Under the pieces are notes generated by a model. That model had not been told where the DNA came from. It made no database searches and was given only the letters and a program-made list of their open reading frames with translations. Positions 2,391-17,519 of a DNA stretch of 33,453 nucleotides are shown here, in pieces. The position numbers were made by a program, and so were the translations under genes. Within the stretch, counting starts at the first letter, position 1; each line of letters begins with the position of its first letter. Origin of the DNA: Pelagibacteraceae bacterium AG-422-B15 (lineage in GTDB: Bacteria; Pseudomonadota; Alphaproteobacteria; Pelagibacterales; AG-422-B15); contig QCMN01000014.1 of the NCBI GenBank assembly GCA_003213715.1, positions 1 through 33,453 on the forward strand. Reading direction: 5' to 3'.

Positions 2391-3485
2391 TTAGACTAAG
2401 TCGTTCAGGTGTGTCTGTAAATGATTAAGGTAAAATTTCTGATATTGAACTAAGCTCGTCTCTAAATCCCCATATTTGCCAGGCTGATAGGACCTGCTTT
2501 CAATTCCCTTTTGATTCATTTCACATAACTGGGAATCTTCAGTAGAAGTTTGGTCCCACAAAAAAATCATTTTATCGACATCAACTTCTGCATCTTTATG
2601 AGTTACCCAATATTGGGTCACTACTGTTTTATTTTGATTAATTGGTGAGAATAAAAAAAGTATCACAAATTCGTTATTTGCAACAAAGCTGTTAAATGGG
2701 CTGAAACCAATTGCTGTATAACCATTGTCAGCACCAATCTCCCTAAAATCACCCATCAATGTTGAACAAGAATAACTGCCATCCATTGTTTCTGATGCGA
2801 TACCTTCAGGTAAAGGTGTGCGCTCTGCAATTCTAAAATATTTTGAGTCATGCTCACTGTACTCTCCAACAAATAAACCTCTTTTTAAAGTTTGTTCTGT
2901 CCACTCTTTAATACGTTTTGTAAGTTTAGGGGCCTCAATTCCTGAGCCAACACCTGCTCCATAAGAATTACAGTAATCTTCACCATGCACACTTAGATAA
3001 TCTTTGTGCGTAAATTCGCCTCCCCAGCAATGAGCGCATTCTTTAAAATTATGAATTGTAGCTAAATGTGAAGCATTAAAAATAAAATCTTTTTGAAAAG
3101 CAATCTTGCCATCATTAAGTCCATGAATTTTGATGTATGGTTCAAGTGGTTTAATGAATTCATCAAATGAATAGGGAGAGTTTGATAAATTGATGAATAC
3201 TAAACTCTCATACACTTTTAAATGACACTTAATATTTGGATCAGATGCGGAAATTGAAAGTTGATTATCATCTGTTTTTTTTATCTCTATAAATCCTTTA
3301 TTTAAGTTGTATGTAAAGATATTGGTTTGATTAAAGTACGAGAGATGGGTGAGAAAAACCCATTGTTTTTTGAAAATTGCATCATAACTTGCATGAAATA
3401 TCTCTGAATTTGTAAAGAAAAGTTGATCCATTCCTGCGTGTGGATCTTGGCTTTGTATTAAACTTTTGATTTTTTCACTTATCAT
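2391..3485 (-). CDS. Rieske-oxygenase-like catalytic subunit lacking the Rieske [2Fe-2S] motif
   Basis: The 364-residue protein is clearly paralogous to the full Rieske oxygenase at 10470-11708: shared blocks include F-K-QW near the N-terminus, VYESLVFINLS versus IYEGLIFINLS, FDEFI-PL, NFKECAHC versus NFQECYHC, GAGVG/GAGIG, RTP, STLMG/SSLMG, FSPF/FNPF and WD-T. Between residues about 73 and 85 the whole cluster-binding stretch (C-x-H ... C-x2-H) of the paralogue is missing. The length difference, 412 versus 364, is exactly 48 residues. The mononuclear-iron site appears kept: N146, E149, H152, H160 and D317. Spacing between the two histidines is seven residues instead of four. The reading frame is intact and first in a four-gene operon, so it is not an obvious pseudogene. 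By analogy with NdmC of caffeine demethylation, a Rieske-less subunit that takes electrons from a partner, it may work with another Rieske protein. The substrate is unknown. Confidence 0.85.
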   Translation of the reverse strand: MISEKIKSLIQSQDPHAGMDQLFFTNSEIFHASYDAIFKKQWVFLTHLSYFNQTNIFTYNLNKGFIEIKKTDDNQLSISASDPNIKCHLKVYESLVFINLSNSPYSFDEFIKPLEPYIKIHGLNDGKIAFQKDFIFNASHLATIHNFKECAHCWGGEFTHKDYLSVHGEDYCNSYGAGVGSGIEAPKLTKRIKEWTEQTLKRGLFVGEYSEHDSKYFRIAERTPLPEGIASETMDGSYSCSTLMGDFREIGADNGYTAIGFSPFNSFVANNEFVILFLFSPINQNKTVVTQYWVTHKDAEVDVDKMIFLWDQTSTEDSQLCEMNQKGIESRSYQPGKYGDLETSLVQYQKFYLNHLQTHLNDLV

Positions 3486-3537: not shown

Positions 3538-5031
3538 ATGAATGATACTGATATTGAAATTTGTTATTTATCCGCTTCAGAAACATTAAAGAAGTATAAA
3601 GAAAAAAAATTATCTCCAGTTGAAGTCCTGTCGGCTGTAATTAAAAGAATAGAAACAGTTAATCCCAAGATAAATGCATTTAATTATCTTGATTTTGATA
3701 AGTCTATAGAACTTGCAAAAGAGTCTGAGAAAAAATTTTTCAATAATAATAATGTTCTGCCTCTTGAAGGATTACCTTTAGCAATAAAAGACGAAGTGAA
3801 TATAAAAGGACAACCAAATCGTAATGGTTGCTTACTTCTCAAGAATAATATCGCACAGAAAACTGATATTGATGTTGAAACAATAGTCAATTCTGGCGCG
3901 ATACTTCACGGTCGCACAACCAATCCAGAATTTTCTCTCACTTCTTTTTGTCACTCAAAACTAAATGGCGTAACAAGAAACCCTTGGAACTTAGATATGA
4001 CACCTGGTGGATCAAGTGGAGGTAGTGCGGCTGCATTAGCTTCAGGTTGTGCAATGTTGACAACAGGAAGTGACATTGGGGGTTCAATAAGAATACCAGC
4101 AGGCGCATGCGGAGTAGTTGGATACAAGCCACCTCATGGAAGAAATGCTCAAAGTTATCCATTCAATCATGACCCTTACTGTGTAACAGGACCACTCGCA
4201 AGAACAGTGGTTGATACTGCAATGATGCAAAACATTATGTGTGGACCAAACCAAAAAGACATAACATCTTTACGTCCAAAAAAAACATTACCATTAAATT
4301 ACGAAAATATTAAAAATTGGAAAATTGCTTATTCAATGGACTTAGGATTTTTTGAGATTGATAAAGAAGTGGAGCAGAACACGCTGACGGCATTAAAAAA
4401 GTTTGAAAGTCTTGGATGTCAGGTCACAGAGGTGAAACTTAATTGGAAAAAAGATGAAGTAAATTCGGTTTGCTTTAGTCATTATGCAAATTCTTTTTAT
4501 AAAGAAATTTCTGAGCTTTCAGATTCTGAAAAAGAACAGCTGAGTGATTACACAAAAATGTTCAGTGGTGTTACTGAAATGCACATTGACTCCTTAAAAA
4601 ATAATAAAAAAATTTATCACGAACAAATTGGTGCTCACTTGGGTTATGGCGTTGAAGAAAGTGCAGTGGTGACTGGAAAAATGTATGAAGAAATTGGTCC
4701 AATATTAGAAAAATATGATTTATTTATTTGCCCTACCAATGCCTTACCGGCAATCAAAGCAGATATTGATATAGTAAACGAACGCGTCATTATTAATGGA
4801 AAAGAACAAGAATGTGCTGACTTTGCATGGTGCATGTCCCACCCATTCAATATGTTGGGTAAACTGCCAGTCCTTTCCGTACCCTCTGGCTTTAGTTCAA
4901 ATCAAGTGCCTACTGGCATTCAGATTATTTCACGCTCCTACAGTGATGAACTAGTATTTCAAGGAGGATACAACTACGAAATGGTCGATCCATGGCTAAA
5001 TAATGCGAAAAATCGGCCAGTTTTTGATTGA
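3538..5031 (+). CDS. Amidase (amidase-signature family)
   Basis: The 497-residue protein hydrolyses an amide bond through a Ser-cisSer-Lys triad, all of which is visible: K84 in AIKDEVN, cis-serine S159 in TPGGSSGGS, and nucleophile S183 in GSDIGGSIRIPAG. The spacings (75 and 24 residues) match those of fatty-acid amide hydrolase. No signal peptide is seen, so it should be cytoplasmic. It is divergent from the Rieske-less oxygenase (52-bp gap) and is followed by the solute-binding protein gene, which has its own promoter. It may release an amine or a carboxylate from an imported amide, or from a gamma-glutamyl or N-acyl intermediate, but the substrate of amidase-signature enzymes cannot be read from sequence. 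It lacks GatB/GatC neighbours, so it is unlikely to be the tRNA amidotransferase GatA. Confidence 0.88.
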   Translation: MNDTDIEICYLSASETLKKYKEKKLSPVEVLSAVIKRIETVNPKINAFNYLDFDKSIELAKESEKKFFNNNNVLPLEGLPLAIKDEVNIKGQPNRNGCLLLKNNIAQKTDIDVETIVNSGAILHGRTTNPEFSLTSFCHSKLNGVTRNPWNLDMTPGGSSGGSAAALASGCAMLTTGSDIGGSIRIPAGACGVVGYKPPHGRNAQSYPFNHDPYCVTGPLARTVVDTAMMQNIMCGPNQKDITSLRPKKTLPLNYENIKNWKIAYSMDLGFFEIDKEVEQNTLTALKKFESLGCQVTEVKLNWKKDEVNSVCFSHYANSFYKEISELSDSEKEQLSDYTKMFSGVTEMHIDSLKNNKKIYHEQIGAHLGYGVEESAVVTGKMYEEIGPILEKYDLFICPTNALPAIKADIDIVNERVIINGKEQECADFAWCMSHPFNMLGKLPVLSVPSGFSSNQVPTGIQIISRSYSDELVFQGGYNYEMVDPWLNNAKNRPVFD

Positions 5032-5100: not shown

Positions 5101-6225
5101 ATGCCAAAATACGATGTAACTAAAAAGTTCATTGATAACTTGCGAGAAGGCAAGGTAAGTCGTAGGTCTTTTGTAAAGGGTATGGGTGCAGCTGGTGTTC
5201 TAGGTTTAACATCCGGTCTTGTTCCTGCTACTAATGCATTTGCATCTACTGGACGTGCTTTTGTTTGGGGCGGTTATGATGACGATGGTCTATTTGGACC
5301 ATATGTTGAAGCTCACGGATCACCAGAATATTCAACTTTTGGAGATGCGGAAGAAGGTCTTCAAAAATTAAAAGCTGGTTTTGAAGTTGATGTTGCTTGG
5401 CCTTGCCAAGGTGAAATTGCACGATGGGTAAGAGCTGGTGTTATTCAGCCACTGGACACATCAAGATTAGAAAACTGGGGAGATATGTTCCCAGAAGTTA
5501 GAGACTTACCAAGTGGTATAGTTAACGGACAAAACTATTTTGCACCGGTTGACTGGGGAGACACAAGTATTGTGTACAACACTGATAAAGTCACTTGGAT
5601 GCAACCAGGTAATGAAAGTCTATATCTCTTAGAAGATCCAAGAATGAAAGGTAAAGTTGGAGTACTTGATAGTGCTGCAGATAGTTTATTCTTGATGATG
5701 CATTATCTAGGAACAGACATTAAGGACATTAACCAATTAAATAAGGCGGCTATTGATCAAGGTATCAATAAGTTCCGTGAACTCAGAGATAATGGAAACA
5801 TTAGAACATTCTTCGCTGACTCTGCTTCTATTGCTGAAGCAATTGGAAATGAAGAGGTCTGGGCTTCAATTTGTTGGAATGAAACATCATGGGAGACTGG
5901 TTACCCAATGATGCGTCCTGTTGAAGGTACAATGACATGGGCATGCGGACTTGCAATTGCGACAGGTGCAAATCTTGATGTTGCTTATGACATGATTAAC
6001 GCTGCAACTAGTGCCGAAACTTCAGCTTACCTATTAAGCGAATGGGGTTATGGACACTCTAACCAAAAAGGCTTTGGCTCACTTACTGCAGATGAGCTAG
6101 CTGAAAGAGGAGTTGCTCCAAACCCAGCTGAACACTTAGCAAATGGTGCGTTCTCAGTAATGCCACCAGATGATGTAACGGATTACATGGAAGCTCAATG
6201 GGCAGAAATGACTGCTGGCGGTTAA
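5101..6225 (+). CDS. Tat-exported extracellular solute-binding protein, spermidine/putrescine (PotD) type
   Basis: The 374-residue periplasmic binding protein is of the polyamine/opine-type ABC importer family. The N-terminus carries a twin-arginine signal, VSRRSFVKG (RR at 21-22), a hydrophobic stretch, and a likely cleavage after NAFA (residue 48), so it is probably exported folded by Tat. The mature domain has PotD-like landmarks, for example PVDWGDTSIVYNTDKV near 142-157 and GTMTWACGLAIATGAN before the C-terminal lobe. In classical polyamine binders an acidic residue follows the equivalent W; here that segment reads WACG, which may mean the ligand is not a free polyamine (inference). It is convergent with the transporter genes at 6275-9060, which lack their own binding protein, and a strong terminator lies between them. 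Confidence 0.87.
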   Translation: MPKYDVTKKFIDNLREGKVSRRSFVKGMGAAGVLGLTSGLVPATNAFASTGRAFVWGGYDDDGLFGPYVEAHGSPEYSTFGDAEEGLQKLKAGFEVDVAWPCQGEIARWVRAGVIQPLDTSRLENWGDMFPEVRDLPSGIVNGQNYFAPVDWGDTSIVYNTDKVTWMQPGNESLYLLEDPRMKGKVGVLDSAADSLFLMMHYLGTDIKDINQLNKAAIDQGINKFRELRDNGNIRTFFADSASIAEAIGNEEVWASICWNETSWETGYPMMRPVEGTMTWACGLAIATGANLDVAYDMINAATSAETSAYLLSEWGYGHSNQKGFGSLTADELAERGVAPNPAEHLANGAFSVMPPDDVTDYMEAQWAEMTAGG

Positions 6226-6246
6226 TCTTAAATTTGTGAAATCATT

Positions 6247-6285
6247 AATAGCCTGTTCTCTTATTGAGAGCAGGCTATTTTTTTT
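6247..6285 (+). terminator. Rho-independent terminator between convergent binding-protein and ATPase genes
   Basis: A 14-bp inverted repeat (AATAGCCTGTTCTC paired with GAGAGCAGGCTATT, one G-U pair) closes a TTATT loop and is followed by eight T residues on the plus strand. It ends the solute-binding protein transcript. The stop codon of the convergent ATPase gene (6275-6277) lies inside the right arm. The minus-strand side has a weaker U-tract. Confidence 0.9.
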
Positions 6286-7357
6286 GCAGTAAGCTAATAT
6301 CTTCTAAACTGATACTTATAAAACAAGTATTATTCTCAAATGACTGATTATCAAAGTGCTGGGATGATACAGTTATTACTTTATTTATTCCTGATACCTC
6401 AACATAAAATCTTGTCATTTCTCCTAAGTAGGAAGTCTGATTTATTTTTGCTTCTAAGCAAATATCCCAATCAGATTTATCTCTAGAAATCATCATTGAC
6501 TCTGGTCGAACACTACAAACAACATCAGACGAATTCTCTGGAATATTTAGGTTATTCTTTACTTTGAAATCACCAAGATCTTCAATCGCAACATTGATGT
6601 GATCGCCATCTTTTGACCTTGTAGATGCTTTTAAAAAGTTTGTTTCTCCAATGAAATCACTTACAAAAATATTTTCTGGGTTCTTATAAAGTTCATTTGG
6701 AGCAGAAAGTTGTTGTATCTTGCCTTCACTCATAACAGCAACTCTATCAGACATGCTTATTGCTTCTTGTTGATCATGAGTAACAAATACAAAGGTAATT
6801 CCAATTTCTTTCTGTAGCGTTCTCAATTCAAGTTGCATTTCGTCTCTTAATTTTTTATCTAATGCTCCAAGAGGCTCGTCCAATAAAAGAACTTTTGGTT
6901 GTCTAACTAAAGCTCTTGCTAACGCAACACGCTGTCTTTGCCCACCAGATAATTGGCCACTGAATCTTTCCTCATAACCCTCAAGCTTGACAAGGGCTAA
7001 AACATCATCAACTCTTTTTTTAATTTCGTCATCAGTCAAACCAAGTTTTCTTAATCCAAATTTTATATTTTGCTCAACATTAATGTGAGGAAATATGGCA
7101 TAGTTTTGAAATACCATATTTGTAGGTCTTTTATCAGGAGGCAATGCAGTGATATCACTGCCATCGATTAATAAATTACCATTTGTTGGATATTCAAATC
7201 CTGCTAACAATCGGAGTAAAGTTGTCTTTCCACATCCTGATGGACCTAACAAAGAAAAGAACTCTCCTTCTTTAATTGAAAAAGACACGTCATCAACTGC
7301 TTTGACATTTCCAAAATGTTTTGAAATTCCGTTTATCTGAATAAAATTTTCGTTCAT
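6275..7357 (-). CDS. potA: ABC transporter ATPase, spermidine/putrescine (PotA) type
   Basis: The 360-residue cytoplasmic ATPase energises import through the two adjacent permeases. It has Walker A GPSGCGKTT (38-46), a Q-loop in VFQNYAIFPH, the signature LSGGQRQRVA, Walker B VLLLDEPLGALD and the switch histidine in VTHDQQEA. A C-terminal TOBE-like region of about 120 residues follows, as in PotA and other CUT1/polyamine-type ATPases. It is the last gene of a minus-strand run, 5 bp after the potC-like permease. The family association with PotBC permeases and a PotD-type binding protein supports polyamine or related cation import. PotA-like ATPases also serve betaine, opine and iron systems, so the symbol indicates family rather than proven substrate. 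Confidence 0.9.
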   Translation of the reverse strand: MNENFIQINGISKHFGNVKAVDDVSFSIKEGEFFSLLGPSGCGKTTLLRLLAGFEYPTNGNLLIDGSDITALPPDKRPTNMVFQNYAIFPHINVEQNIKFGLRKLGLTDDEIKKRVDDVLALVKLEGYEERFSGQLSGGQRQRVALARALVRQPKVLLLDEPLGALDKKLRDEMQLELRTLQKEIGITFVFVTHDQQEAISMSDRVAVMSEGKIQQLSAPNELYKNPENIFVSDFIGETNFLKASTRSKDGDHINVAIEDLGDFKVKNNLNIPENSSDVVCSVRPESMMISRDKSDWDICLEAKINQTSYLGEMTRFYVEVSGINKVITVSSQHFDNQSFENNTCFISISLEDISLLQKK

Positions 7358-7362
7358 ATTTT

Positions 7363-8172
7363 TTATAATTTAATAGCTATGTCCTGTTTCTCTTTGCCTT
7401 GTCCAACATTTCTCAGCCAGAATGCTAACAAAACAATAAAAGTAGTAAACACAATTATCACCGCTCCCAAAGCAAGTACATGTGGGAGTTTTTTCACAAA
7501 TCGCATTTGATTCCACATATACATTGGTAAAGTTGCATCACTGCCAGATAGAAAGAATGCCAGAATAAATTCATCAAAGGATATAATAAAACTTAGTAAT
7601 AAAGCTGCTATTATACCTGGCAAATAAAGAGGTAGTGATACTCTGTAAAAAGTTCCCCATGCATTTTCCCCTAAATCACGTGAAGCTTCTTCTAAAGAAA
7701 AGTCAAAACCTTCTATTCGCGCAATCAATATCAACATTGCAAATGGAGTACAAAACAATATGTGTCCTATTGTTACTGGAACCAGACCCAATGGAAAACC
7801 AAGGTTGATCCATATAATTAATATTGATACTGCTAAAATAATTTCTGGTATTAAAAACGGCATCATTATGGCTCCGTAAGAAACATTCTGACCCCTAAAT
7901 TTGTATCTAACAAATGCCTTTGCAGCGAGAAGTGCAATTGCTGTACTTACAACGCTTGCAACAACGCCGACTTTAACGCTCGCCCATAAAGCTTTATGTA
8001 AGTTTCGCTTTGACCACATTTCCTCATAATGATCTGTGGTAAATCCTGCTAATGGAAATGACATATAATTTGCATCATTAAAACTGAAAATCGGTAAAAA
8101 AAGAACCGGTATATAGAGAAAACCAAAATATATTAATGTGTAAACTAGCAGTGAATTGTTTTTTTCATTCAT
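7363..8172 (-). CDS. potC: ABC transporter permease, PotC type
   Basis: The 269-residue inner-membrane permease has about six hydrophobic segments and the cytoplasmic EAA loop EASRDLGENAWGTFYRVSLP followed by LPGIIAALLLSFIISFDEF. The EEASRDLG form with FDEF is typical of PotC-type permeases. It forms the membrane channel with the PotB-like subunit encoded 3 bp upstream, and it couples to the ATPase encoded 5 bp downstream. The N-terminus is short, with a first membrane segment around residues 8-28. No unusual features were noted. Confidence 0.9.
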   Translation of the reverse strand: MNEKNNSLLVYTLIYFGFLYIPVLFLPIFSFNDANYMSFPLAGFTTDHYEEMWSKRNLHKALWASVKVGVVASVVSTAIALLAAKAFVRYKFRGQNVSYGAIMMPFLIPEIILAVSILIIWINLGFPLGLVPVTIGHILFCTPFAMLILIARIEGFDFSLEEASRDLGENAWGTFYRVSLPLYLPGIIAALLLSFIISFDEFILAFFLSGSDATLPMYMWNQMRFVKKLPHVLALGAVIIVFTTFIVLLAFWLRNVGQGKEKQDIAIKL

Positions 8173-8175
8173 AAT

Positions 8176-9060
8176 TTAAGAAAGCCTCTGTGTAAGTCTT
8201 TTTGTTGTGTATGAGACAATTGCTGTTATGAGAATAACGGTCGTCAGCATGATTGTAGCTGATGCCGCTCCAAGTGGTATATTGTTTATTTTTCCAAAAT
8301 AAGCTTGGATCATATTTGATAACATTCTTCCCTCAGTGCCCCCAATTAAGGCAGGCGTTACATAATCACCAACAGTTGGAATAAATATTATTAAAATCGC
8401 ACCAATGACACCTGGCAAGGAAAGAGGAAATGTCACTTTCCAAAATACTTCAAATTTTGATAAACCTAGATCTCTTGCAGCTTCAATATATGAAAAGTCT
8501 ATTTTCTCAAGAGACACGTAAAGTGGTAATAAAGCAAATGCTGCCCAAGCATGTGTTAGAGTAATAATAACAGCTTCCTCCGAGTACATAAGAAATGTAA
8601 GAGGCTCACTAATAATGCCTGCACCTAATAATGTTGAATTGAAAACTCCTTTGGTGCCCAGTATGATTTTCCAAGAAAATACTCTTAATAGGTATGAAGT
8701 CCAAAAAGGTAAGGTTAATAAAACTAACCATAACATTTTGTTTTTTTTCACATAAAAAGCGATGTAATAGCATACAGGGTAAGCTGTTAGAAGAGTGATC
8801 AGTGTTACAATGAATGATATTTTAACCGACTTAATGAGAAGCGAGACAAGCAAACTTTTTTCAAAAAAGTCAATGTATCGCTGAAATGTTGGAGTGAAAT
8901 CAATCTCCATCATACTTACTTGTGTAAAAGAGCTAAAACTTAGCATTAATGCCATAGGAATAAGCATTACGAGAATTATTAAAAATAATGCAGGAGACAG
9001 TAATGAATATGCTTTTGCATTATCACTCTTAGAGTATAAATTTCGCCAAGCTTGAAACAT
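8176..9060 (-). CDS. potB: ABC transporter permease, PotB type
   Basis: The 294-residue inner-membrane permease has about six membrane segments and the EAA loop EAARDLGLSKFEVFWKVTFP, followed by LPGVIGAILIIFIPTVGDYVTPALIGG. The last stretch is a PotB/PotH hallmark. It is the first transporter gene after the FAD oxidoreductase gene, with a 36-bp AT-rich gap that could hold a promoter, although none is convincing. Gene order potB-potC-potA on the minus strand is followed by the binding protein on the opposite strand rather than in the same operon. Confidence 0.9.
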   Translation of the reverse strand: MFQAWRNLYSKSDNAKAYSLLSPALFLIILVMLIPMALMLSFSSFTQVSMMEIDFTPTFQRYIDFFEKSLLVSLLIKSVKISFIVTLITLLTAYPVCYYIAFYVKKNKMLWLVLLTLPFWTSYLLRVFSWKIILGTKGVFNSTLLGAGIISEPLTFLMYSEEAVIITLTHAWAAFALLPLYVSLEKIDFSYIEAARDLGLSKFEVFWKVTFPLSLPGVIGAILIIFIPTVGDYVTPALIGGTEGRMLSNMIQAYFGKINNIPLGAASATIMLTTVILITAIVSYTTKRLTQRLS

Positions 9061-9096: not shown

Positions 9097-10452
9097 TTAT
9101 ATTTCTTTTTTGCTTCTATCCGTGAGATTAGCATACCACAAATATAATCTTAAATACCAAAGTCTTAAAAATCCAAATGGGATTTTAGGTGATAGGCCCT
9201 GATAGACTTTTGAAATGTTTGTTTCCCCACTATTTGACTCGTAAATCATTTCAGCTAATTTTTTACCACAATACACAGTTGTATTATTACCGTTAGCTTG
9301 ATAGCCGTATGAAAAATATACAGACTTATCTTCTTCTAATGCACCAAATGCGGGAACAAAGTCACGAGTCATAACAACAGTGCCTCTCCAATAATGATCA
9401 ATATCGACCTTGTCCCAATTTGGAAATACCCCACGAAATTTTTTTGTCATGAATTCTTGCATTCTCTCTGCGCTCTTTTCATCACCGTAGGTGTCGCCTC
9501 TTGTTCCAAATAACATCCTGTTTGAAGGCATTCTTCTATAATAATACAAGATCTCTCTAGAGTTGCAGATTGGATTAAGAGTTTTATAGTTTTGTAGTTT
9601 AAATTCATCTTCTGACATTTCTCTAGTGACAATTATATTAGATAAAACAGGCATCATTCTATTTGCAAAACTTGGATGGAGAGACTCATCTGTGTATCCA
9701 TTTGTTGCAACAACAACCTTATTTGCAGTAATCGACCCACTATCTGTAATTAATTTATGTGAACCGTTTCTTTCCCATTTTTTCACTCTAGAAAAACTAT
9801 GAAGTTTCGCTCCCACATCTACAGTTGCTGATGCAAAACCATTCATAAAAGCCATTGGGTTCATTGCAAATCCTGCTTCAGTAAAAACAGCTCCAAATTG
9901 TTCTGTTGATTGATGTCCAACTTCATCAAACTCCTCTTTGGGTATCCACTTGGTGTTAATACCAAAATATTTTTTAAGATCATTGCCCCACTCCTTTAGT
10001 TCCTCACTGCTATCAGGGTGATGAGCAACATCTAGATTGCCTGTGCCAGTTTTTTCACATTCAATATTATTTTCCGAAATAAGTGAGGATAAAAGTTCAA
10101 CACCTTCAATTTGAGAAGAAAAAAATTTCTTTGTTTCATCCAGACCAAACTTTGCAATCAGTTGGTTGACCGATAGTTTTGTTGCAGGCAAACAACAAAA
10201 GCCAGCATTCCTTGCACTGCTTGCAAATCCAAAATGCCCTGCCTCTAGTAATCTTACGTCACCGCTGTAATTTTTTGCAATGTGATAAGCTGTACTTATT
10301 CCAGTAAAGCCGCCACCTATTACACAAACATCACAGCTTTCATCAGTTGTGAGCTTAGGATATTTGTCTTGTTCTATTTGACTGACTTTTTCCCAATAAC
10401 TTTTTACTGGCTTATTAACGTCGTAAATATCTTTGTTATAAAGTTGCTTCAT
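9097..10452 (-). CDS. FAD-dependent amine oxidoreductase, DAO family (PuuB/OrdL-like)
   Basis: The 451-residue enzyme has an N-terminal dinucleotide-binding motif CVIGGGFTG (about 43-51), the ASSARNAGFC flavin-contact segment, and a C-terminal block WRGTVVMTRDFVPAFG...YFSYGYQANGNNTT, all typical of gamma-glutamylputrescine oxidase and related D-amino-acid-oxidase-fold enzymes. These oxidise a C-N bond, releasing an aldehyde or demethylated amine. I chose the ATG at 10452 (MKQLYNKDIY): the upstream extension would overlap the Rieske gene's end, whereas this start has a GAGAGAG-like ribosome-binding site and a 17-bp gap. It lies downstream of, and probably in the same transcript as, the aminotransferase and Rieske genes. 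The substrate could be a gamma-glutamyl amine or a secondary methylamine such as sarcosine. Confidence 0.85.
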   Translation of the reverse strand: MKQLYNKDIYDVNKPVKSYWEKVSQIEQDKYPKLTTDESCDVCVIGGGFTGISTAYHIAKNYSGDVRLLEAGHFGFASSARNAGFCCLPATKLSVNQLIAKFGLDETKKFFSSQIEGVELLSSLISENNIECEKTGTGNLDVAHHPDSSEELKEWGNDLKKYFGINTKWIPKEEFDEVGHQSTEQFGAVFTEAGFAMNPMAFMNGFASATVDVGAKLHSFSRVKKWERNGSHKLITDSGSITANKVVVATNGYTDESLHPSFANRMMPVLSNIIVTREMSEDEFKLQNYKTLNPICNSREILYYYRRMPSNRMLFGTRGDTYGDEKSAERMQEFMTKKFRGVFPNWDKVDIDHYWRGTVVMTRDFVPAFGALEEDKSVYFSYGYQANGNNTTVYCGKKLAEMIYESNSGETNISKVYQGLSPKIPFGFLRLWYLRLYLWYANLTDRSKKEI

Positions 10453-10469
10453 ACTCTCTCGCTTAGAGA

Positions 10470-11708
10470 TTATGGTAACTGCATGTTGGTAAAATACCAA
10501 TTATAAAAGTAAGTTACCGCTGACTCATTTTCAGATAAAACTCCAGGTTTAAAAGACTGTGATAGAAGGCCTTCCTGGTTATTTTCAATTATTGTTGTAT
10601 CATGCGCCGTAGTAACATCCCAAATATAGCTTACTTCCTCGGGCTTAAAGTCTTTATTCTCCTCAGCTTCCTCGTTTACGAGCCATATGAGTTCTACTTC
10701 AGACTCTAGAAGTGAGATGGGTTTAAAAATAAACATGACGCCAAAATCATTTGTGAAATAACAACAGCCAAATGGATTAAAGCTTACTTGGGTTAATCCT
10801 CCATCAAAATCTTTAAACTGTCCCATTAGTGAAGAAGCTGGCTTTCCATCTTTGGTTTGTGATAAGTTTCCGTTTCCAATTGGAGTTCTGTCAACATATC
10901 TGTTTAAGCCTTTTTTTAATCCTTCTTCTGTTTCAAGATAAACCTCAGACGGAGTTCCATTTTTTTTACATTCCTCGACCCAAGGTTTAATTTTATTTAG
11001 ATATTCATCAGTCTCTTTTTGAGGTGCAGTACCTATTCCAGCACCCATTGCGACGACCCAGTCTTTATCCTGTACTGCACAAAGCTCTGGATGTGCTGTA
11101 GGACAGTGATAACACTCCTGAAAATTTTCAAGAACTAATTTAAAATTTGCATGAGTTGGATATTTTTTTCTTATCGCAATTTTTGACTTACTCGTCTGAT
11201 GAAATTCCATCATTTCTTTTAGAGGCTCAATGAATTCATCAAAATTCATTGGTTCTTCTAATGATAAGTTAATAAATATTAATCCTTCATAAATTTTAAA
11301 ATGGCACTCTCTAAGACCCCACTCTTCTTTTTTAAAATCCTCCGGCATAAAACGTGCAGCTTTAAGCTCACCTTCTGCTGAAAAACTCCAAGCATGATAG
11401 GGACACACTAAAAGTTTTTTTGATCCCTCTTCATCTAAACAAATTCTTGATCCTCGATGAGTGCAAACATTATAAAATGCTCTTACTTCATTGTCTCTTC
11501 CTCTAATAACTATGATGGACTCCTTTTCGGCATCAAAAACAAAATAATCACCTGGGTTAGGAATACGACTTATGTGATCTACCATTAACCACTGTTTGAA
11601 ATAAATTCGCTTCATCTCTTCGGAAAAAATATTCGAATCTGTATAAAAGTCTTGGGGTAATGTTTTACCCTCCTGATAGTTTTTTAGCAGATGGTTAAAC
11701 TCAAGCAT
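10470..11708 (-). CDS. Rieske non-heme iron oxygenase, catalytic alpha subunit (GbcA/CntA-like)
   Basis: The 412-residue oxygenase subunit carries an intact Rieske cluster site, C82-x-H84 and C102-x2-H105, then the mononuclear iron site in NFQECYHCPTAH (N195, E198, H201, H206) with D370 as likely third ligand. The bridging position is Glu rather than Asp. This is the form known for quaternary-amine oxygenases such as carnitine CntA, and with ECYHC it points to the GbcA/CntA group that oxidatively attacks N-methylated compounds. It lies 4 bp after the aminotransferase gene and 17 bp before the flavin oxidoreductase gene. No ferredoxin reductase partner is encoded in the window. Its paralogue at 2391-3485 lacks the Rieske domain. 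Confidence 0.9.
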   Translation of the reverse strand: MLEFNHLLKNYQEGKTLPQDFYTDSNIFSEEMKRIYFKQWLMVDHISRIPNPGDYFVFDAEKESIIVIRGRDNEVRAFYNVCTHRGSRICLDEEGSKKLLVCPYHAWSFSAEGELKAARFMPEDFKKEEWGLRECHFKIYEGLIFINLSLEEPMNFDEFIEPLKEMMEFHQTSKSKIAIRKKYPTHANFKLVLENFQECYHCPTAHPELCAVQDKDWVVAMGAGIGTAPQKETDEYLNKIKPWVEECKKNGTPSEVYLETEEGLKKGLNRYVDRTPIGNGNLSQTKDGKPASSLMGQFKDFDGGLTQVSFNPFGCCYFTNDFGVMFIFKPISLLESEVELIWLVNEEAEENKDFKPEEVSYIWDVTTAHDTTIIENNQEGLLSQSFKPGVLSENESAVTYFYNWYFTNMQLP

Positions 11709-11712
11709 TTAT

Positions 11713-13110
11713 TTAAGATGCAGACCAAAGGCCTTCTTTCTTGATGTCATCTGTAGCTAACTCAATTCCTTTTCTAAGTATACTTACGAGATCATCTATC
11801 TGTTCCTTAGTGATGATCAAAGAAGGAGACATGACACACGTATTAAATAGCGGTCTAACAATTAAACCAAGATTTTGACAATGAGAATTGATGCGAGAAG
11901 CGATCTCGTATTGTAAATTCAGAGGATCTTTTTTTTCTTTACTGATTACACATTCAACAGCAGCCATTAATCCCTCACCACGTACATCGCCAACAATCGG
12001 TAGATCAATTAATTCACTTAATTTAGATTGAAAATAAGGGCCGACTTCCTGTACATGTTCAAGGAGGTTATTTTTTTCAATATAATCAAGTGTTGCTGTA
12101 GCTGCTGCCATGCTCACTGGGTGACCCGAGTCAGTAAATCCATTTGAAAATATAACTTTTTCTTTATTATCAAGTTGAGACATAAGCTTTTCAGAAATAA
12201 CAACCGCACCACAAGGTACGTATCCTGAAGTAATCCCTTTTGCTAAAAGGATGATATCAGGTTCTAAATCAAAATAATTTTCTGAAGCGAATATATGACC
12301 TAACCTTCCAAATCCGGTTACTATCTCATCAGAAATATAAATAACATCGTACTTAGTACAAATTTCTCTTGTCTTTTTGTGATATCCTTTAGGAGGAACA
12401 ATTACTCCGCCTGATGCTAGGATTGGCTCTGCAATAAATGCCGCGACCTTATCTTGACCAAGTTCTAAAATTTTATTTTCTAACTCTTTAACTTTTAAAT
12501 CACAGAATTCTTCATCACTTAAATCGTCTGGTTTTTTAAACGGATTTGGCGCAGACAAATGATGAACTAAGTTATCTGCAAAATCAAAGTTGTTTTTATC
12601 TCTTTCTTTACCTGAACATGAAGCCCCTAAAAATGTACTACCGTGATATGCATCATGACGTGAGATAATTTGTTTCTTATCTCTTAACCCACGAACGTTA
12701 TTATAAAACATTACAAATCTTAATGCAGAGTCTACTGCTGAAGATCCTCCGGACGTGAAAAATACTCTTTTAAGATCACCGGGCGCATATTTAACAAGTC
12801 GTGAAGCATAGTTATATGCAATCTCAGTGGACTCCGTGAATGGGCTGGCGTAGGGCATTCTTGTAATCTGATTATAAACAGCATCAGCAATTTCTTTTAC
12901 GCCATGTCCTACGTTAACATTCCACATTCCTCCAGGACCATCAATAAGCTGTCTTCCTGTTTGATCGTAAAGATAAATTCCTTTTGACTTATCAATGAAT
13001 GTCCTGCTGTCTTCACCACGATACTCAAGATACTGCCATGGGTATAGAATTCTATCGTCGAGAGTATTAAGGAGATCTTTTTTTTCGGGAATCGAAGTTG
13101 ATTTGGGCAT
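11713..13110 (-). CDS. Class III pyridoxal-phosphate aminotransferase
   Basis: The 465-residue omega-aminotransferase family member has the PLP lysine K291 in LLAKGITSGYVPCG, the cofactor aspartate D261 in ISDEIVTGFGR, the SGGSSAVDSALR phosphate-binding segment near 120-131 and RHDAYHGST near 151-159. It transfers a terminal amino group, usually to pyruvate or 2-oxoglutarate. It is distinct from the second class III enzyme at 19884-21248, which resembles SpuC much more closely. The gene is first in the unit aminotransferase-Rieske-FAD oxidase. A predicted promoter and a perfect palindromic operator lie directly upstream, with the -10 element only 5 bp from the ATG, so the transcript may be leaderless. 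The exact amino donor is not known. Confidence 0.9.
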   Translation of the reverse strand: MPKSTSIPEKKDLLNTLDDRILYPWQYLEYRGEDSRTFIDKSKGIYLYDQTGRQLIDGPGGMWNVNVGHGVKEIADAVYNQITRMPYASPFTESTEIAYNYASRLVKYAPGDLKRVFFTSGGSSAVDSALRFVMFYNNVRGLRDKKQIISRHDAYHGSTFLGASCSGKERDKNNFDFADNLVHHLSAPNPFKKPDDLSDEEFCDLKVKELENKILELGQDKVAAFIAEPILASGGVIVPPKGYHKKTREICTKYDVIYISDEIVTGFGRLGHIFASENYFDLEPDIILLAKGITSGYVPCGAVVISEKLMSQLDNKEKVIFSNGFTDSGHPVSMAAATATLDYIEKNNLLEHVQEVGPYFQSKLSELIDLPIVGDVRGEGLMAAVECVISKEKKDPLNLQYEIASRINSHCQNLGLIVRPLFNTCVMSPSLIITKEQIDDLVSILRKGIELATDDIKKEGLWSAS

Positions 13111-13156: not shown

Positions 13157-13182
13157 AAAAAAACAGCCTATTTTTGGCTATT
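13157..13182 (-). terminator. Rho-independent terminator of the oxidoreductase-GcvT-like operon
   Basis: Read on the minus strand, AATAGCC and GGCTGTT form a 7-bp stem (one G-U pair) around a 7-base loop, followed by a T-tract. The stem contains the stop codon of the GcvT-like gene (13178-13180). It separates that operon from the aminotransferase unit, which restarts from its own promoter 13 bp further on. Confidence 0.65.
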
Positions 13183-14377
13183 CATAAAGGTCTGCAGGTA
13201 CTTTGTTACGTCTTTCAGGGCTAAAAAATTGTCTTTTTACAACCTTACACTTTGCCCATATTTTTTTATATTCCAATTCTTCTGGGTGATAAATTTCTGC
13301 AAAAATATTTTCTTTAATCTTAATTCCATATGGACGCTTTAGAGACGCAAGCGCAACGTTTCTTTTCATGGTAGGTGACCACATTGCTGCGGTAACAATT
13401 CCTATATCTTCTTTTTTTTCATTATAAATCACAGAGCCTACTGCGGGCTTATCGCCATCTATGTCCAATCCAACTAAACATCTTTCAGAATTACCTGTCT
13501 CTTTTTCTTTCTTTAAAGCGCGTTTGCCTACAAAGTAACTTTCTTTATTGAGATGAACAAGCCAACCCATTCCAATTTCATACGGTGAACGCATTCTCAC
13601 TGGTCTTAAGGAATCTTCAGCTGCCATAAAATCAGTATTGGTTTGAATAAAGCCAGCTTCAATTCTTGTCATCTCAAGAGCATGCATGCCAAAAGGTCTT
13701 ATCTTTAATTCTTTTCCAGCTTCCATGATACTATCCCACATGTTTTCTGCATTAGCTGGATCAGTCCATAATTCATATCCTAAATCACCTGTGAAGCCTG
13801 TTCGTGAGATCAAAACATCATATCCGTTAATATTATATTGTTTCATTCCAAATGGTTTTAATAATTCAAGGTCATCTGCTCCGTAGTTTTTTAGTGTTGA
13901 ACAAGAAGTAGGTCCTTGGATTGCTAATGCAGCCGTTGTGTCTGTTGCATCCTCAAAAGAAACATCAAAACCTTCAGCAGAGTCATGTAGCCAATTATAG
14001 ATCTTTACTGCGCAGCAAAGCATAAATTTTGTATTCGAAAATTTAAATATGGTACCATCGTCCATTACTTTACCATCTTCATTACACCAAATTATGTATG
14101 CTACTGTATTATCTTCCATCTGTGATAAATCTCTTGTTACAAGATAATCAACAAATTTATTAGCATCGCTGCCATTGATCATATATTTGCACATAGGTGT
14201 GAGATCCATAACTGAGGTGCCATTTCTAGCAGCAGTATATTCCAACTCAGTTGTTGAGTATTCTGTGGGTACAGTAAAACCGTTCCAGTTATAATATTTA
14301 TTTGTTCTTGAAGCTAAGCTTGTTCTAGAGTGAAAAGGGGTTTTTTTTAGTGCTGTAAATCTTAAATCTCTATTCAT
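13178..14377 (-). CDS. GcvT-like folate-dependent aminomethyltransferase/demethylase
   Basis: The 399-residue protein has the tetrahydrofolate-binding GcvT fold. It shows a GcvT N-terminal domain, including EDGKVMDD with the probable catalytic Asp at 106/107, SRTGFTGDLGYELW, and ALEMTRIEAGF, then a C-terminal beta-barrel domain starting near KRALKKEKETG. Family members accept one-carbon groups onto tetrahydrofolate: glycine-cleavage T protein, DMSP demethylase DmdA, and the folate domains of sarcosine and dimethylglycine dehydrogenases. The ATG at 14377 (MNRDLRFTAL) leaves a 2-bp gap after the upstream oxidoreductase. An upstream start at 14464 would add 29 residues wholly inside that gene. 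No gcvH or gcvP is nearby, so a role in taking methyl or methylene groups from an N-methylated substrate is more likely than glycine cleavage (inference). Confidence 0.85.
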   Translation of the reverse strand: MNRDLRFTALKKTPFHSRTSLASRTNKYYNWNGFTVPTEYSTTELEYTAARNGTSVMDLTPMCKYMINGSDANKFVDYLVTRDLSQMEDNTVAYIIWCNEDGKVMDDGTIFKFSNTKFMLCCAVKIYNWLHDSAEGFDVSFEDATDTTAALAIQGPTSCSTLKNYGADDLELLKPFGMKQYNINGYDVLISRTGFTGDLGYELWTDPANAENMWDSIMEAGKELKIRPFGMHALEMTRIEAGFIQTNTDFMAAEDSLRPVRMRSPYEIGMGWLVHLNKESYFVGKRALKKEKETGNSERCLVGLDIDGDKPAVGSVIYNEKKEDIGIVTAAMWSPTMKRNVALASLKRPYGIKIKENIFAEIYHPEELEYKKIWAKCKVVKRQFFSPERRNKVPADLYE

Positions 14378-14379
14378 AT

Positions 14380-15891
14380 TTATGCGTCCTCCAAGATAGC
14401 TTGAGCCGCATTTTTTCCTGGAATTCCAGTTAAGCCTCCACCCGGATGAGTACCTGCACCACACATATATAGTCCGTCAAGATGGGTTCTATATTGTGAT
14501 GCCCCAGGAATTGGTCTGAGCATAAAAAGCTGATCGATTTGAATTTCTCCATGATGCCAATGTCCGCCTGAAACATAAAAATTTTTCTCTATGTCGTCGG
14601 GAGTAACAATTGTTTTAGTCTCTATACAGCTTTGAATATCAGGTGCATATTTCCCTATTAATTTTATAACGGCATCTACATAGTTATCTTTAATTTTATC
14701 CCAACCCTCCTGCGCACCGTAGGAAGCATATTGAACTTGAATATCTAATACAGGATTACTCTGGTCAGAATTTTTTAGTTTCATTTCTAAAATAGGTTCC
14801 ATAGAAAGTTTATCAAACTTACTTGGATTGAATGCCTCTTCTATATAATCAATTGAAGGAGCAATTACCATTCTACTCTCTAAATCATTTTTATCGCAGT
14901 TAATAAATTCAGGTTGTTTATTGAGACTTAATGATAATTTTGCAACTTTTCCTTTTGATCGATGATGTTTGATTCTTCTTTTCACATCAGTGTCTAAATT
15001 CTCAGTTCCTAAAAGACAGAAATAAGTCGATCTTGGATCTGCATTAGAAATAATTTTTTTTGCATAAATTTTTTCACCGCTGTGAAGTTCAACTCCTATT
15101 GCTTTATCATTTTCAGTAATGCATCTTTTAACCGATGAAGACGTTTTAATTTCAACTTTATTTTTATTACTGATATCTAGCAAAGTATCTACAAAAGCTT
15201 TACTGCCACCATCAATTTCATATATTCCCCCAAAGATTGAGTTGTCATGTGTGGCCATGCGATAAAGTAGATTAATTAATGAACCGGGTGATCTTGGGCC
15301 CAAGTTAGAACCAAGCACCGCGTCATGGGCGATTAGGCCTTGCAAAAGAGTATTTTCAAAATTGTCTTCCAATTCGTCCGCAATATTAAGCCCTATCATT
15401 CTTGCAAACTCATTAAATTTTTTCTTTCCAAGCATTCGAACATTCATGCCTAGTTTGAATAATTTAAAATAATCAGAGAAAGTATTGTTCATGATCCTTG
15501 GTGGTGAAGCCATCATGAAAGAACCTAAAGCCTTTGAAAAGGACGACATTTTATCATGAAATTCTACATATCTGTCTGCATCCTTCGAAGAGAAACCAGA
15601 AATAACTTTATGGTCAATATGTTGGTTTCCAACTAGGCGAATATGTTGACCGGACTCTGACAGTGCGATCGTAGACTTTGCTTTATACTTTACTGGCAGT
15701 CCACCAAGAGAGCTTGATACGCTCAGCGGTATCTGAGGAACGAAGTTAGTTATACTCTCTTCAACAAGTCCCCCGCAATTCTCACGTGCCTCACAAATCA
15801 GAACTTTACGGTTTTTTTTTGCGAGAATATTAGCGCAAACAAGACCATTATGGCCTGCGCCAATAACTATTACGTCATAATTTTCTGACAT
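14380..15891 (-). CDS. FAD-dependent oxidoreductase, phytoene-desaturase/PYROXD2-like (second of tandem pair)
   Basis: The 503-residue flavoprotein has an N-terminal Rossmann motif VIVIGAGHNG (GxGxxG at 11-16), an acidic end of beta-2 in CEARENCGG, and the C-terminal flavin motif THPGGGLTGIPGKNAAQA (from 481). Overall organisation matches the CrtI-related family called PYROXD2-like, not a classical carotenoid desaturase. Its start codon overlaps the TAA of the preceding paralogue by one base (TAATG), and its stop is 2 bp from the GcvT-like gene, so the three are probably co-translated. The tight coupling suggests that the two oxidoreductases form a complex or act on successive intermediates. 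The substrate is unknown; oxidation of a cyclic or N-methylated amine is inferred from neighbours. Confidence 0.83.
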   Translation of the reverse strand: MSENYDVIVIGAGHNGLVCANILAKKNRKVLICEARENCGGLVEESITNFVPQIPLSVSSSLGGLPVKYKAKSTIALSESGQHIRLVGNQHIDHKVISGFSSKDADRYVEFHDKMSSFSKALGSFMMASPPRIMNNTFSDYFKLFKLGMNVRMLGKKKFNEFARMIGLNIADELEDNFENTLLQGLIAHDAVLGSNLGPRSPGSLINLLYRMATHDNSIFGGIYEIDGGSKAFVDTLLDISNKNKVEIKTSSSVKRCITENDKAIGVELHSGEKIYAKKIISNADPRSTYFCLLGTENLDTDVKRRIKHHRSKGKVAKLSLSLNKQPEFINCDKNDLESRMVIAPSIDYIEEAFNPSKFDKLSMEPILEMKLKNSDQSNPVLDIQVQYASYGAQEGWDKIKDNYVDAVIKLIGKYAPDIQSCIETKTIVTPDDIEKNFYVSGGHWHHGEIQIDQLFMLRPIPGASQYRTHLDGLYMCGAGTHPGGGLTGIPGKNAAQAILEDA

Positions 15892-17519
15892 TAATAATAA
15901 TTACCTGTTTGAGGGATATTCATATCAATTAGAACCTCCCTTGCAGCATTCGCTCCTGGTGCACCCATAACTCCACCACCTGGATGAGTTGATGAACTGC
16001 ACATATACATATTTTTAAGTGGTGTTCTGTACTGTGCATATCCAGGCACAGGTCTATTAAACATGAGTTGATCCATTGTTAATTCGCCTTGAAAGATATT
16101 TCCTTCTGTCAATCCTACTTCATTGTCTAATTCTAATGGAGTACGAACTTCGTAGTGGTTAATTAAATCTTTAAAATTAGGAGAAAACTCAGCAATACAA
16201 TCAACAATATGTCTTCCAAATTCTTGCTTTCTTTCTTCATTCCATCCGCCGTTTGCAAGATTGAATGGAACATATTGAATAAAGACAGACATATAATGCT
16301 TTCCCGGAGCTGCCATTGTTGGATCGCTTTTAGAAGGAATACACATATCTACATAAGGATTTCTTGACCATTCACCTCGTTTCCAATCGTCATAAGCTCC
16401 TTCCATTTCTTCAATTGTTTCTGTGAAGTGCATATCACCTCCACCACCTGGATCACCTTCTGGAATACATGGGAATTCAGGAAGGCCGTCTAGGGCAATA
16501 TTAAGTTTTCCCGATGAGCCTCTAATTTTAAAGTTTTTAACTCTTTCAACAAATTCACCAGGTAAAGAGCTTTCTTCAGTAATTTTTAAGAATGTTCTTT
16601 TAACATCTAAGTTTGATACAATTTTTTTTGCGTAATATTCATCACCTTTTTTGGTAGCAACTCCAATCGCACGACCATTTTTAGTAATGACATTAACGAC
16701 TTCATTATCTGGTTTTACTTCACCGCCGTGAGCGTTTAGGCAGCCTGTCATTGCTTTTGTAATAGAGCCCATACCTCCTCTTGAATACCCCCACGCTCCA
16801 ACTGAACCATCTACTTCTCCCATATAATGGTGCAGTAATACGTAAGCAGAGCCAGGTGAGCAAGGACCAAGAGCAGTTCCAATAATTGCACTTCCAGCTA
16901 AGTGTGCTTTTGTAATATCGCTTTCAAAATATTCATCTAAATAGTCTCTGATGCTCATTGTATAAAATCGAATAGTGTCATAAATTTCTTTTTCACCAAG
17001 TCCACCTAACTCGTCTTTAGCTGCAAAATGTTTTGCAAACTCCAGGGCGCCAAATAAATCTTTTGGTTTAAAAGAAGTTAAATCAGGTGGTGTCATTTTT
17101 AATAGCGGTTTGATAATTTTGCATTGCCTCAAGACATCACGACTGTACCTTTCATAGGCCTCCGCATCTTTGTGAGAATGTCTTCTGATAGAATTGATCG
17201 TCATATCATGATCATGATAGTGGGCATAGTAGTCCCCATTTCTCATCATTGTTGCGCTACCTTCGTAAGGAATAATTTGTAAACCATATTTGTAGAGTTC
17301 AAGATCACGCATGATCTCAGGTCTTAGTAAGCTGCAAACATATGAACAGTTAGAATATTTCCATCCAGGATAGAGCTCGCGACTAACAGCAGCCCCTCCA
17401 ATCCATTCATTTTTTTCTAGAACAACAACATCTAGTCCTGCCTTCGCCATATAACTAGCAGCGGTCAAACCATTATGACCCGCACCAATTACGATTACAT
17501 CGTGTGTATTTTTTGCCAT
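15891..17519 (-). CDS. FAD-dependent oxidoreductase, phytoene-desaturase/PYROXD2-like (first of tandem pair)
   Basis: The 542-residue flavoprotein begins with DVIVIGAGHNGLTAASYMAKAG (GxGxxG at 12-17), followed by LEKNEWIGGAAVS. It ends with MYMCSSSTHPGGGVMGAPGANAAR (GGG motif from 514), matching its downstream partner but with clear divergence elsewhere. No signal peptide or membrane segment is apparent. It is the first gene of the minus-strand operon and is divergent from the BetI-like regulator. A candidate operator overlaps its predicted -35 element. No ribosome-binding site of normal form is seen before the ATG at 17519. With no other carotenoid genes present, carotenoid synthesis is unlikely; catabolic amine oxidation fits the context better, although this is inference. 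Confidence 0.84.
   Translation of the reverse strand: MAKNTHDVIVIGAGHNGLTAASYMAKAGLDVVVLEKNEWIGGAAVSRELYPGWKYSNCSYVCSLLRPEIMRDLELYKYGLQIIPYEGSATMMRNGDYYAHYHDHDMTINSIRRHSHKDAEAYERYSRDVLRQCKIIKPLLKMTPPDLTSFKPKDLFGALEFAKHFAAKDELGGLGEKEIYDTIRFYTMSIRDYLDEYFESDITKAHLAGSAIIGTALGPCSPGSAYVLLHHYMGEVDGSVGAWGYSRGGMGSITKAMTGCLNAHGGEVKPDNEVVNVITKNGRAIGVATKKGDEYYAKKIVSNLDVKRTFLKITEESSLPGEFVERVKNFKIRGSSGKLNIALDGLPEFPCIPEGDPGGGGDMHFTETIEEMEGAYDDWKRGEWSRNPYVDMCIPSKSDPTMAAPGKHYMSVFIQYVPFNLANGGWNEERKQEFGRHIVDCIAEFSPNFKDLINHYEVRTPLELDNEVGLTEGNIFQGELTMDQLMFNRPVPGYAQYRTPLKNMYMCSSSTHPGGGVMGAPGANAAREVLIDMNIPQTGNYY

Follow-up and report, generated by a model that had tools for sequence, protein, structure and literature searches.

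The stretch of DNA analysed here (the window; 33,453 nucleotides, contig QCMN01000014.1 of Pelagibacteraceae bacterium AG-422-B15) carries two related oxygenase genes on its minus strand. One (2391-3485) encodes P0001, a protein of 364 residues, and the other (10470-11708) encodes P0002, the full-length paralogue of 412 residues that we propose as Rieske donor. P0002 matches both the Rieske (E 7e-17) and the Ring_hydroxyl_A (E 9.7e-24) domains of Pfam; P0001 matches Ring_hydroxyl_A (E 1.7e-12) and has no Rieske domain in the same database. The two proteins are homologous over their full length (28% identity, E 2e-51 by BLASTP), the main gap falling at the Rieske lobe. The first-pass annotation, made from the letters of the window, had described P0001 as a Rieske-less paralogue at just these coordinates, and this is confirmed, with the strand being minus.

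A glutamine-synthetase-like ligase (1002-2372, minus; Gln-synt_C, 3.3e-89) lies 18 bp downstream of P0001, and an amidase (3538-5031, plus; Amidase, 4.4e-85) diverges from it across 52 bp. An ABC uptake system occupies 5101-9060, with its solute-binding protein (SBP_bac_8, 2.4e-16) on the plus strand and its ATPase (ABC_tran, 1.1e-37) and two permeases (BPD_transp_1, 6.4e-14 and 8.7e-11) on the minus strand. An FAD amine oxidoreductase follows (9097-10500, minus; DAO, 1.9e-52), which also resembles pipecolate oxidase (8.3e-47, below the cut-off). Upstream of P0002 are a class III aminotransferase (11713-13110, minus; NF005447, above the cut-off) and a folate-binding GcvT-like protein (13178-14464, minus; GCV_T, 3.1e-59), a possible acceptor of formaldehyde, which aligns with positions 376-722 of the 763 in a TMAO-demethylase profile (5.5e-79, below the cut-off). 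The locus encodes more than one class III aminotransferase and, besides, a TetR regulator that resembles BetI but scores below the cut-offs for it, and a member of Peptidase_C26, the family to which PuuD belongs. The oxygenase gene string also includes two FAD proteins resembling CrtO and phytoene desaturase (14380-15891 and 15891-17519, minus); they score far below the carotenoid cut-offs and are probably amine or acid oxidoreductases.

Gene order around the short form was counted over 43 loci (the window, L032-L072 and L105). In all 43 the first labelled gene downstream on the strand of the short form is the ligase, at a distance of 14-52 bp. Upstream, the divergent neighbour is the amidase in 38 loci; in four the locus ends before it, and in L105 the solute-binding protein takes its place. 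In every locus that reaches far enough (32/32), the long form is found 5.5-7.2 kb upstream on the same strand, and the other 11 have at most 5.2 kb of upstream sequence, with no long form in it. The presence of both forms in one locus, which had been singled out as unusual, is thus borne out wherever there is enough sequence to see it. Two local variations may be mentioned. At L115, in genome G439, the solute-binding and transporter genes are 69-86% identical to those of the window and the flanking oxygenases 97-99%, so that the transporter block looks swapped. In a fourth genus of the family, represented by two genomes that are 54-61% complete, G475 (L113) differs in the downstream neighbour of the long-form gene and G480 (L112) has the usual one.

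What P0001 lacks is best seen by local-pair alignment with P0002. Residues 75-115 and 125-132 of P0002, 49 in all, are absent, and they include the four ligands of the [2Fe-2S] cluster (C82-x-H84 and C102-x2-H105 in P0002 numbering). The stretch of P0002 that holds this cluster-binding lobe (codons 75-132; 11313-11486, minus) is replaced in P0001 by a short link (codons 76-84; 3234-3260, minus). The earlier equation of the 48-residue length difference with the missing block comes near, but 48 is a net figure: 49 residues are lost at the lobe, and small insertions and deletions elsewhere nearly cancel. The loss had also been described as that of exactly the Rieske domain. The lobe with its CxH and Cx2H motifs is indeed gone, but the base of the domain stays, for in the AlphaFold model of P0001 six strands flank the cut (residues 43-47, 56-60, 65-70, 76-80, 88-92 and 95-99), which we read as that base. 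Since strands are present on both sides of the cut, the lobe was excised from within the chain and not lost as a terminal domain. Among 40 distinct short proteins the pattern CxH...CxxH is absent from P0001 and matches only once, within the iron-ligand stretch of P0003, a divergent short form described below. As the Rieske motif is missing, P0001 is by definition not a complete Rieske oxygenase, although it may still act as one once joined by P0002.

The rest of the chain has the catalytic fold. The P0001 model (pLDDT 92.8, pTM 0.91) superimposes on 3n0q with Z 41.0 and rmsd 2.6 over 347 residues, and on the stachydrine demethylase Stc2 (3vca) with Z 40.8 and rmsd 2.3 over 342. P0001 is an alpha subunit of a Rieske oxygenase, of the GbcA/Stc2 type, in which the cluster-binding lobe is missing and the catalytic domain is retained. 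It resembles these group V enzymes in its fold over the remaining chain, in its ligand residues, in the bridging glutamate and in a CxxC pair; it differs from them in the missing lobe and in three extra residues between the histidine ligands. P0002 is in architecture a normal member. All three proteins score far below the 670-bit cut-off of the profile for GbcA itself (NF058607), at 137.6 bits for P0001, 297.5 for P0002 and 188.7 for P0003.

The iron site was compared in an alignment of 67 proteins, made up of 26 of 40 short forms, 14 of 30 full-length SAR11 forms and 27 of 43 distant relatives. Left out were 14 short and 16 full-length sequences, eight other SAR11 oxygenases and eight distant frames (335, 371 and 462-665 residues), as were the full-type fragments at L112 and L069. 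Seventeen columns are invariant, and these include N146, E149, C150, H152, C153, H160 and D317 of P0001, which are identical in all the short (26/26), full-length SAR11 (14/14) and outgroup (27/27) rows. All but D317 lie within codons 146-160 (3006-3050, minus), and D317 is encoded at 2535-2537 (minus). The motif of the site is kept in all 39 distinct sequences of the P0001 type. By homology, H152, H160 and D317 are the putative ligands of a 2-His-1-Asp site as in other Rieske oxygenases. The first-pass annotation had listed five ligands; all five residues are invariant, but N146 is by alignment the conserved asparagine and E149 the counterpart of the bridging glutamate E205 of CntA, neither being a ligand. 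By the same comparison C150 and C153 correspond to the cysteine pair C206/C209 of CntA, and the bridging glutamate followed by CxxC is present in all 26 short rows. In the accessible parts of the CntA literature, electrons arrive from the Rieske cluster of the neighbouring subunit, which lies 12.2 Å from the iron, E205 is required for that intersubunit transfer, mutants of C206 and C209 have much reduced activity, and a cysteine pair after the bridging glutamate is described as unique to some group V members.

The site is unusual in one respect. The two histidines are seven residues apart, as had been noticed at first, and this applies to 25 of the 26 short rows; the exception is P0003, where the spacing is four as in all the other 41 rows. 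The model is least confident at this very stretch (mean pLDDT 61 over residues 151-160). Three extra residues between histidine ligands are unusual, and given the uncertainty of the model in this stretch H160 may fail to bind iron; the insertion casts some doubt on the iron site of P0001. Loss of a ligand in an alignment had been named as a ground for giving up the idea; it was looked for among the 26 short rows, and the residues were found invariant.

The short form is not an artefact. The window comes from an incomplete genome (36 contigs, 1.09 Mb), in which an error of reading or assembly could in principle remove a segment, and this had been foreseen as an objection. A scan of GTDB r220 contigs found the same form in 41 loci of other SAR11 records (one of them, L064, titled as a metagenome bin), at 66-99% identity where the gene is whole; four of these are truncated by contig ends (L045, L067, L068 and L071). 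The near-identical copies are in records of Pelagibacteraceae or Pelagibacterales (SAR11). In the family of the window, 43 of 53 genomes have the short form (three as fragments), 39 have the long form, 35 have both and six have neither, these six being 54-77% complete. Of the 12 family genomes that are at least 90% complete, ten carry both forms; in the other two the locus breaks off with the contig, G024 having only a short gene, which runs to the contig end, and G442 only a long gene, on a contig of 6.5 kb. An error as the source of P0001 is thus ruled out for practical purposes, its probability being negligible. Uncut copies in the P0001 clade have a constant length of 363-364 residues, and the median pairwise dN/dS of the short form is low (0.068; 39 sequences, 325 pairs with dS of 0.05-1.5), as is that of the long form (0.045; 29 sequences, 134 pairs). 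The short form is under purifying selection, and the constant length together with the low dN/dS rules out a pseudogene.

The form appears to be confined to one family. Among 397 genomes of the order, with the best five candidates per genome scored, the 47 that matched at E 1e-10 all belong to the family of the window. Relatives of the GbcA-like type were sought more widely, with one genome per species and again the best five candidates scored in each. Searches of 385 genomes of the class with P0001 (E 1e-20) and then with P0003 (E 1e-30) identified no Rieske-less relative outside the family, as judged mostly by frame length; the matches listed from outside the family are frames of 372-704 residues, save one of 299 residues at a contig end (G330:C12), and the 372-residue frame, from G257 and also at a contig end, has the Rieske motif. 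In 349 genomes of the phylum, searched with P0003 at E 1e-30, no Rieske-less relative was identified either, the listed frames from outside the family being at least 409 residues long. For most of these outside matches frame length was the only guide to whether a Rieske domain is present; the 43 distant sequences that were inspected, eight of which are other oxygenases of SAR11 itself, all have the motif. Nor was an orthologue of P0001 found that retains the Rieske domain, another outcome that would have counted against the reading. No report of a Rieske-less oxygenase in SAR11 was met in the literature searched, which covered few subscription journals.

A maximum-likelihood tree was made from 50 of the 67 aligned rows, with the lobe columns and the ligand insertion excluded. 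The short forms group together (support 100/96), as do the long SAR11 forms (100/99); the two groups are sisters (100/100) and nest together among alphaproteobacterial relatives that have the Rieske motif. An earlier tree that retained some lobe columns gave the same groups, and the support of the branch joining the SAR11 pair to its nearest outgroup went from 98/95 to 94/90 once all lobe columns were dropped. This topology is most simply read as a single duplication that preceded the spread of the family, with the lobe lost once. The deepest short branch is P0003 (genome G440, L105:8987-10066, minus), about 40% identical to P0001. Like P0001 it has no Rieske match in Pfam, and its cut falls where that of P0001 does, give or take one or two residues (P0004 residues 76-117 and 127-134). 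Its model (pLDDT 94.0) matches 3n0q with Z 43.3 and rmsd 2.0 over 348 residues. As P0003 shares the cut but has normal ligand spacing, the loss of the lobe probably preceded the three-residue insertion, which was probably gained on the stem of the P0001 clade. This stem is long (1.31 changes per site).

If P0001 is to work as an oxygenase, it needs a source of electrons. Rieske proteins and reductases were sought in 12 genomes with the profiles PF00355, PF00175 and PF00111. The Rieske matches comprise the long form, a second oxygenase (in 12/12, as frames of 387-395 residues) and a frame of 169-183 residues (in 11/12), with one additional oxygenase in G440. The other oxygenase has, in G000, both the Rieske and the Ring_hydroxyl_A domains. 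In G439, listed as 100% complete, there are three Rieske matches in total, namely P0002, one other oxygenase and the small frame, which is the iron-sulfur subunit of the bc1 complex (TIGR01416, 225 bits against a cut-off of 97.4). By this inventory P0002 is the sole Rieske protein found in the locus of P0001. The first-pass annotation had also entertained an external Rieske donor of the kind used by NdmC. This finds no support: no fusion of a Rieske domain with a reductase, as in NdmD, was recognised among the PF00355 frames (169-183 and 387-428 residues) of the 12 genomes, and no reductase of the FNR type (NAD_binding_1, PF00175) was found in 11 of them, G439 included. The sole match is in G443, in a protein that also has FAD_binding_6. 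What is present in G000 is a [2Fe-2S] ferredoxin (L193:1957-2334), 1.2 kb from a thioredoxin-reductase-like flavoprotein of the Pyr_redox_2 family; both are below the NCBIfam cut-offs, and we take the flavoprotein, by its likeness, as a putative ferredoxin reductase of the thioredoxin-reductase type.

Oxygenases without a full set of centres are known from other systems. Rieske oxygenases pass electrons between subunits; a chain that bears a cluster could thus in principle serve one that does not. In Micromonas, as Kunugi and colleagues reportedly found in 2013, each of the chains of chlorophyllide a oxygenase (MpCAO) has lost one centre, and the chains complement each other. That enzyme has two chains according to the part of PMC9615114 available to us; it is algal and belongs to another subfamily. 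The SAR11 pair differs in that P0002 keeps both centres and only P0001 has lost the cluster: the partner without a mononuclear iron site, typical of Micromonas, is not found here, the P0002 clade having its ligand residues in 14/14 rows. NdmC is a non-heme iron monooxygenase without a Rieske cluster; it uses the cluster on the reductase NdmD and, with the GST-like NdmE, carries out N7-demethylation of caffeine (accessible part of PMC4408171). P0001 is likewise an oxygenase that lacks its own cluster, but here an intact paralogue lies in the locus and no Rieske-bearing reductase was found in the 12 genomes, which sets the two cases apart by description. CntA has the bridging glutamate and the CxxC at positions matching those of P0001 but, in the available part of its description, is a homotrimer whose chains each have their own Rieske lobe, and CntB is its reductase. 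The SAR11 pair is thus unlike both NdmC and MpCAO in combining a full enzyme and a cluster-less copy in one locus.

We prefer the view that P0001 is a functional iron-bearing catalytic subunit which, within a mixed trimer or larger ring, draws electrons in trans from the Rieske cluster of P0002, and put the probability of this view at about 0.5; the binding of iron, the assembly, the donor, the reductase and the substrate we infer. The gene of the neighbouring oxygenase would have been duplicated, and the copy now encoding P0001 would then have lost its [2Fe-2S] lobe. In the mixed ring P0001 would act as an acceptor only: electrons from the cluster of a neighbouring P0002 would pass through E149 to the iron held by H152, H160 and D317, and P0002 itself would be reduced by the soluble [2Fe-2S] ferredoxin and the thioredoxin-reductase-like flavoprotein. 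The conserved loss of the lobe, the retention of the ligands and the bridging glutamate, and the same-strand linkage in 32/32 loci make the mixed oligomer the best option. Several observations speak against it. The insertion between the histidine ligands, at which the model is weakest, puts iron binding by H160 in some doubt; the long stem of the clade would be expected of a new role no less than of a new substrate; the two genes do not adjoin, some 7 kb with opposite-strand genes lying between them; the ferredoxin and the flavoprotein proposed as reductants score below the cut-offs; and a second Rieske-bearing oxygenase exists in all 12 genomes searched.

The last point bears on a different possibility, that P0001 forms homotrimers reduced by some other partner: by the soluble ferredoxin directly, or by the other oxygenase, encoded elsewhere, through its Rieske cluster. 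Candidates for both are at hand, the ferredoxin with its flavoprotein and the other oxygenase in 12/12 genomes. Yet in the CntA fold, as far as it is described in the accessible sources, electrons come from the cluster of the neighbouring subunit; P0002 accompanies P0001 wherever the contig allows; and neither the ferredoxin nor the other oxygenase shares a contig with P0001 in G000 or G439. We regard such a donor as unlikely, although it deserves to be kept in mind. The insertion in the ligand stretch, the long stem and the low confidence of the model at the site would also suit a P0001 that has ceased to be an enzyme and has a structural or regulatory part in the P0002 oligomer, comparable to that of a beta subunit or of an inactive alpha-prime subunit. 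This is harder to reconcile with ligands, bridging glutamate and cysteine pair that are invariant in the orthologues of P0001 and even in the divergent P0003, which keeps the normal spacing as well, and we consider it improbable. A shade less probable again is an iron site that works with no Rieske input, on electrons from the substrate or in chemistry other than oxygenation. Loss of the lobe would come naturally if no outside electrons were needed, and CntA can, by the same partial account, run a peroxide shunt; but the bridging glutamate, whose role in CntA is described as one of electron transfer, is kept in 26/26 rows.

A more specific version of the mixed ring is that of a bacterial hetero-oligomer in which the cluster-less paralogue is an obligate acceptor fed solely by its intact sister, two successive N-demethylations are carried out in one ring, and the arrangement has been selected across a SAR11 family. 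We offer this more tentatively, at rather less than even odds. Two such steps would suit a pair of oxygenases of common origin, and the content of the locus is consistent with the degradation of an N-methylated amine or betaine in which folate catches the formaldehyde. In the preferred view as well, the pair would most likely strip two methyl groups in turn from such a compound imported by the ABC transporter, the formaldehyde released passing to the GcvT-like folate-binding protein. In a scan of ten neighbouring proteins, none scored above the cut-off of an NCBIfam profile from which the substrate could be named, and we claim none. In the accessible part of PMC12478193, SAR11 is proposed to demethylate glycine betaine through Bhmt, and gbcAB homologues are given as low in abundance at sea; as far as that source goes, this speaks against glycine betaine as the substrate here.

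The locus makes it possible to ask by experiment whether a Rieske cluster can serve a paralogous active site in trans. Evolution seems to have run that experiment already and to have retained its outcome in bacteria whose genomes are very small. If true, the arrangement would offer a design from nature for rings of oxygenases with a shared donor, and would show how streamlined SAR11 cells use N-methylated compounds.

The search for donors led to two minor observations. SAR11 genomes with two or three Rieske oxygenases (G000, G439, G020, G033 and others) have no PF00175 match in 11 of the 12 searched, and the ferredoxin with the thioredoxin-reductase-like flavoprotein may replace a reductase of the FNR type there. 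The Fer2 matches include NuoG and a frame of 261-271 residues (below the cut-off) besides the small ferredoxin. The NuoG frame (one copy at L189:2156-4666, minus) is 839-841 residues long in nine of the ten genomes of the window's genus, G026 giving no match, and 693-694 residues in G440 and G443, which suggests an extension or insertion of some 150 residues in that genus.
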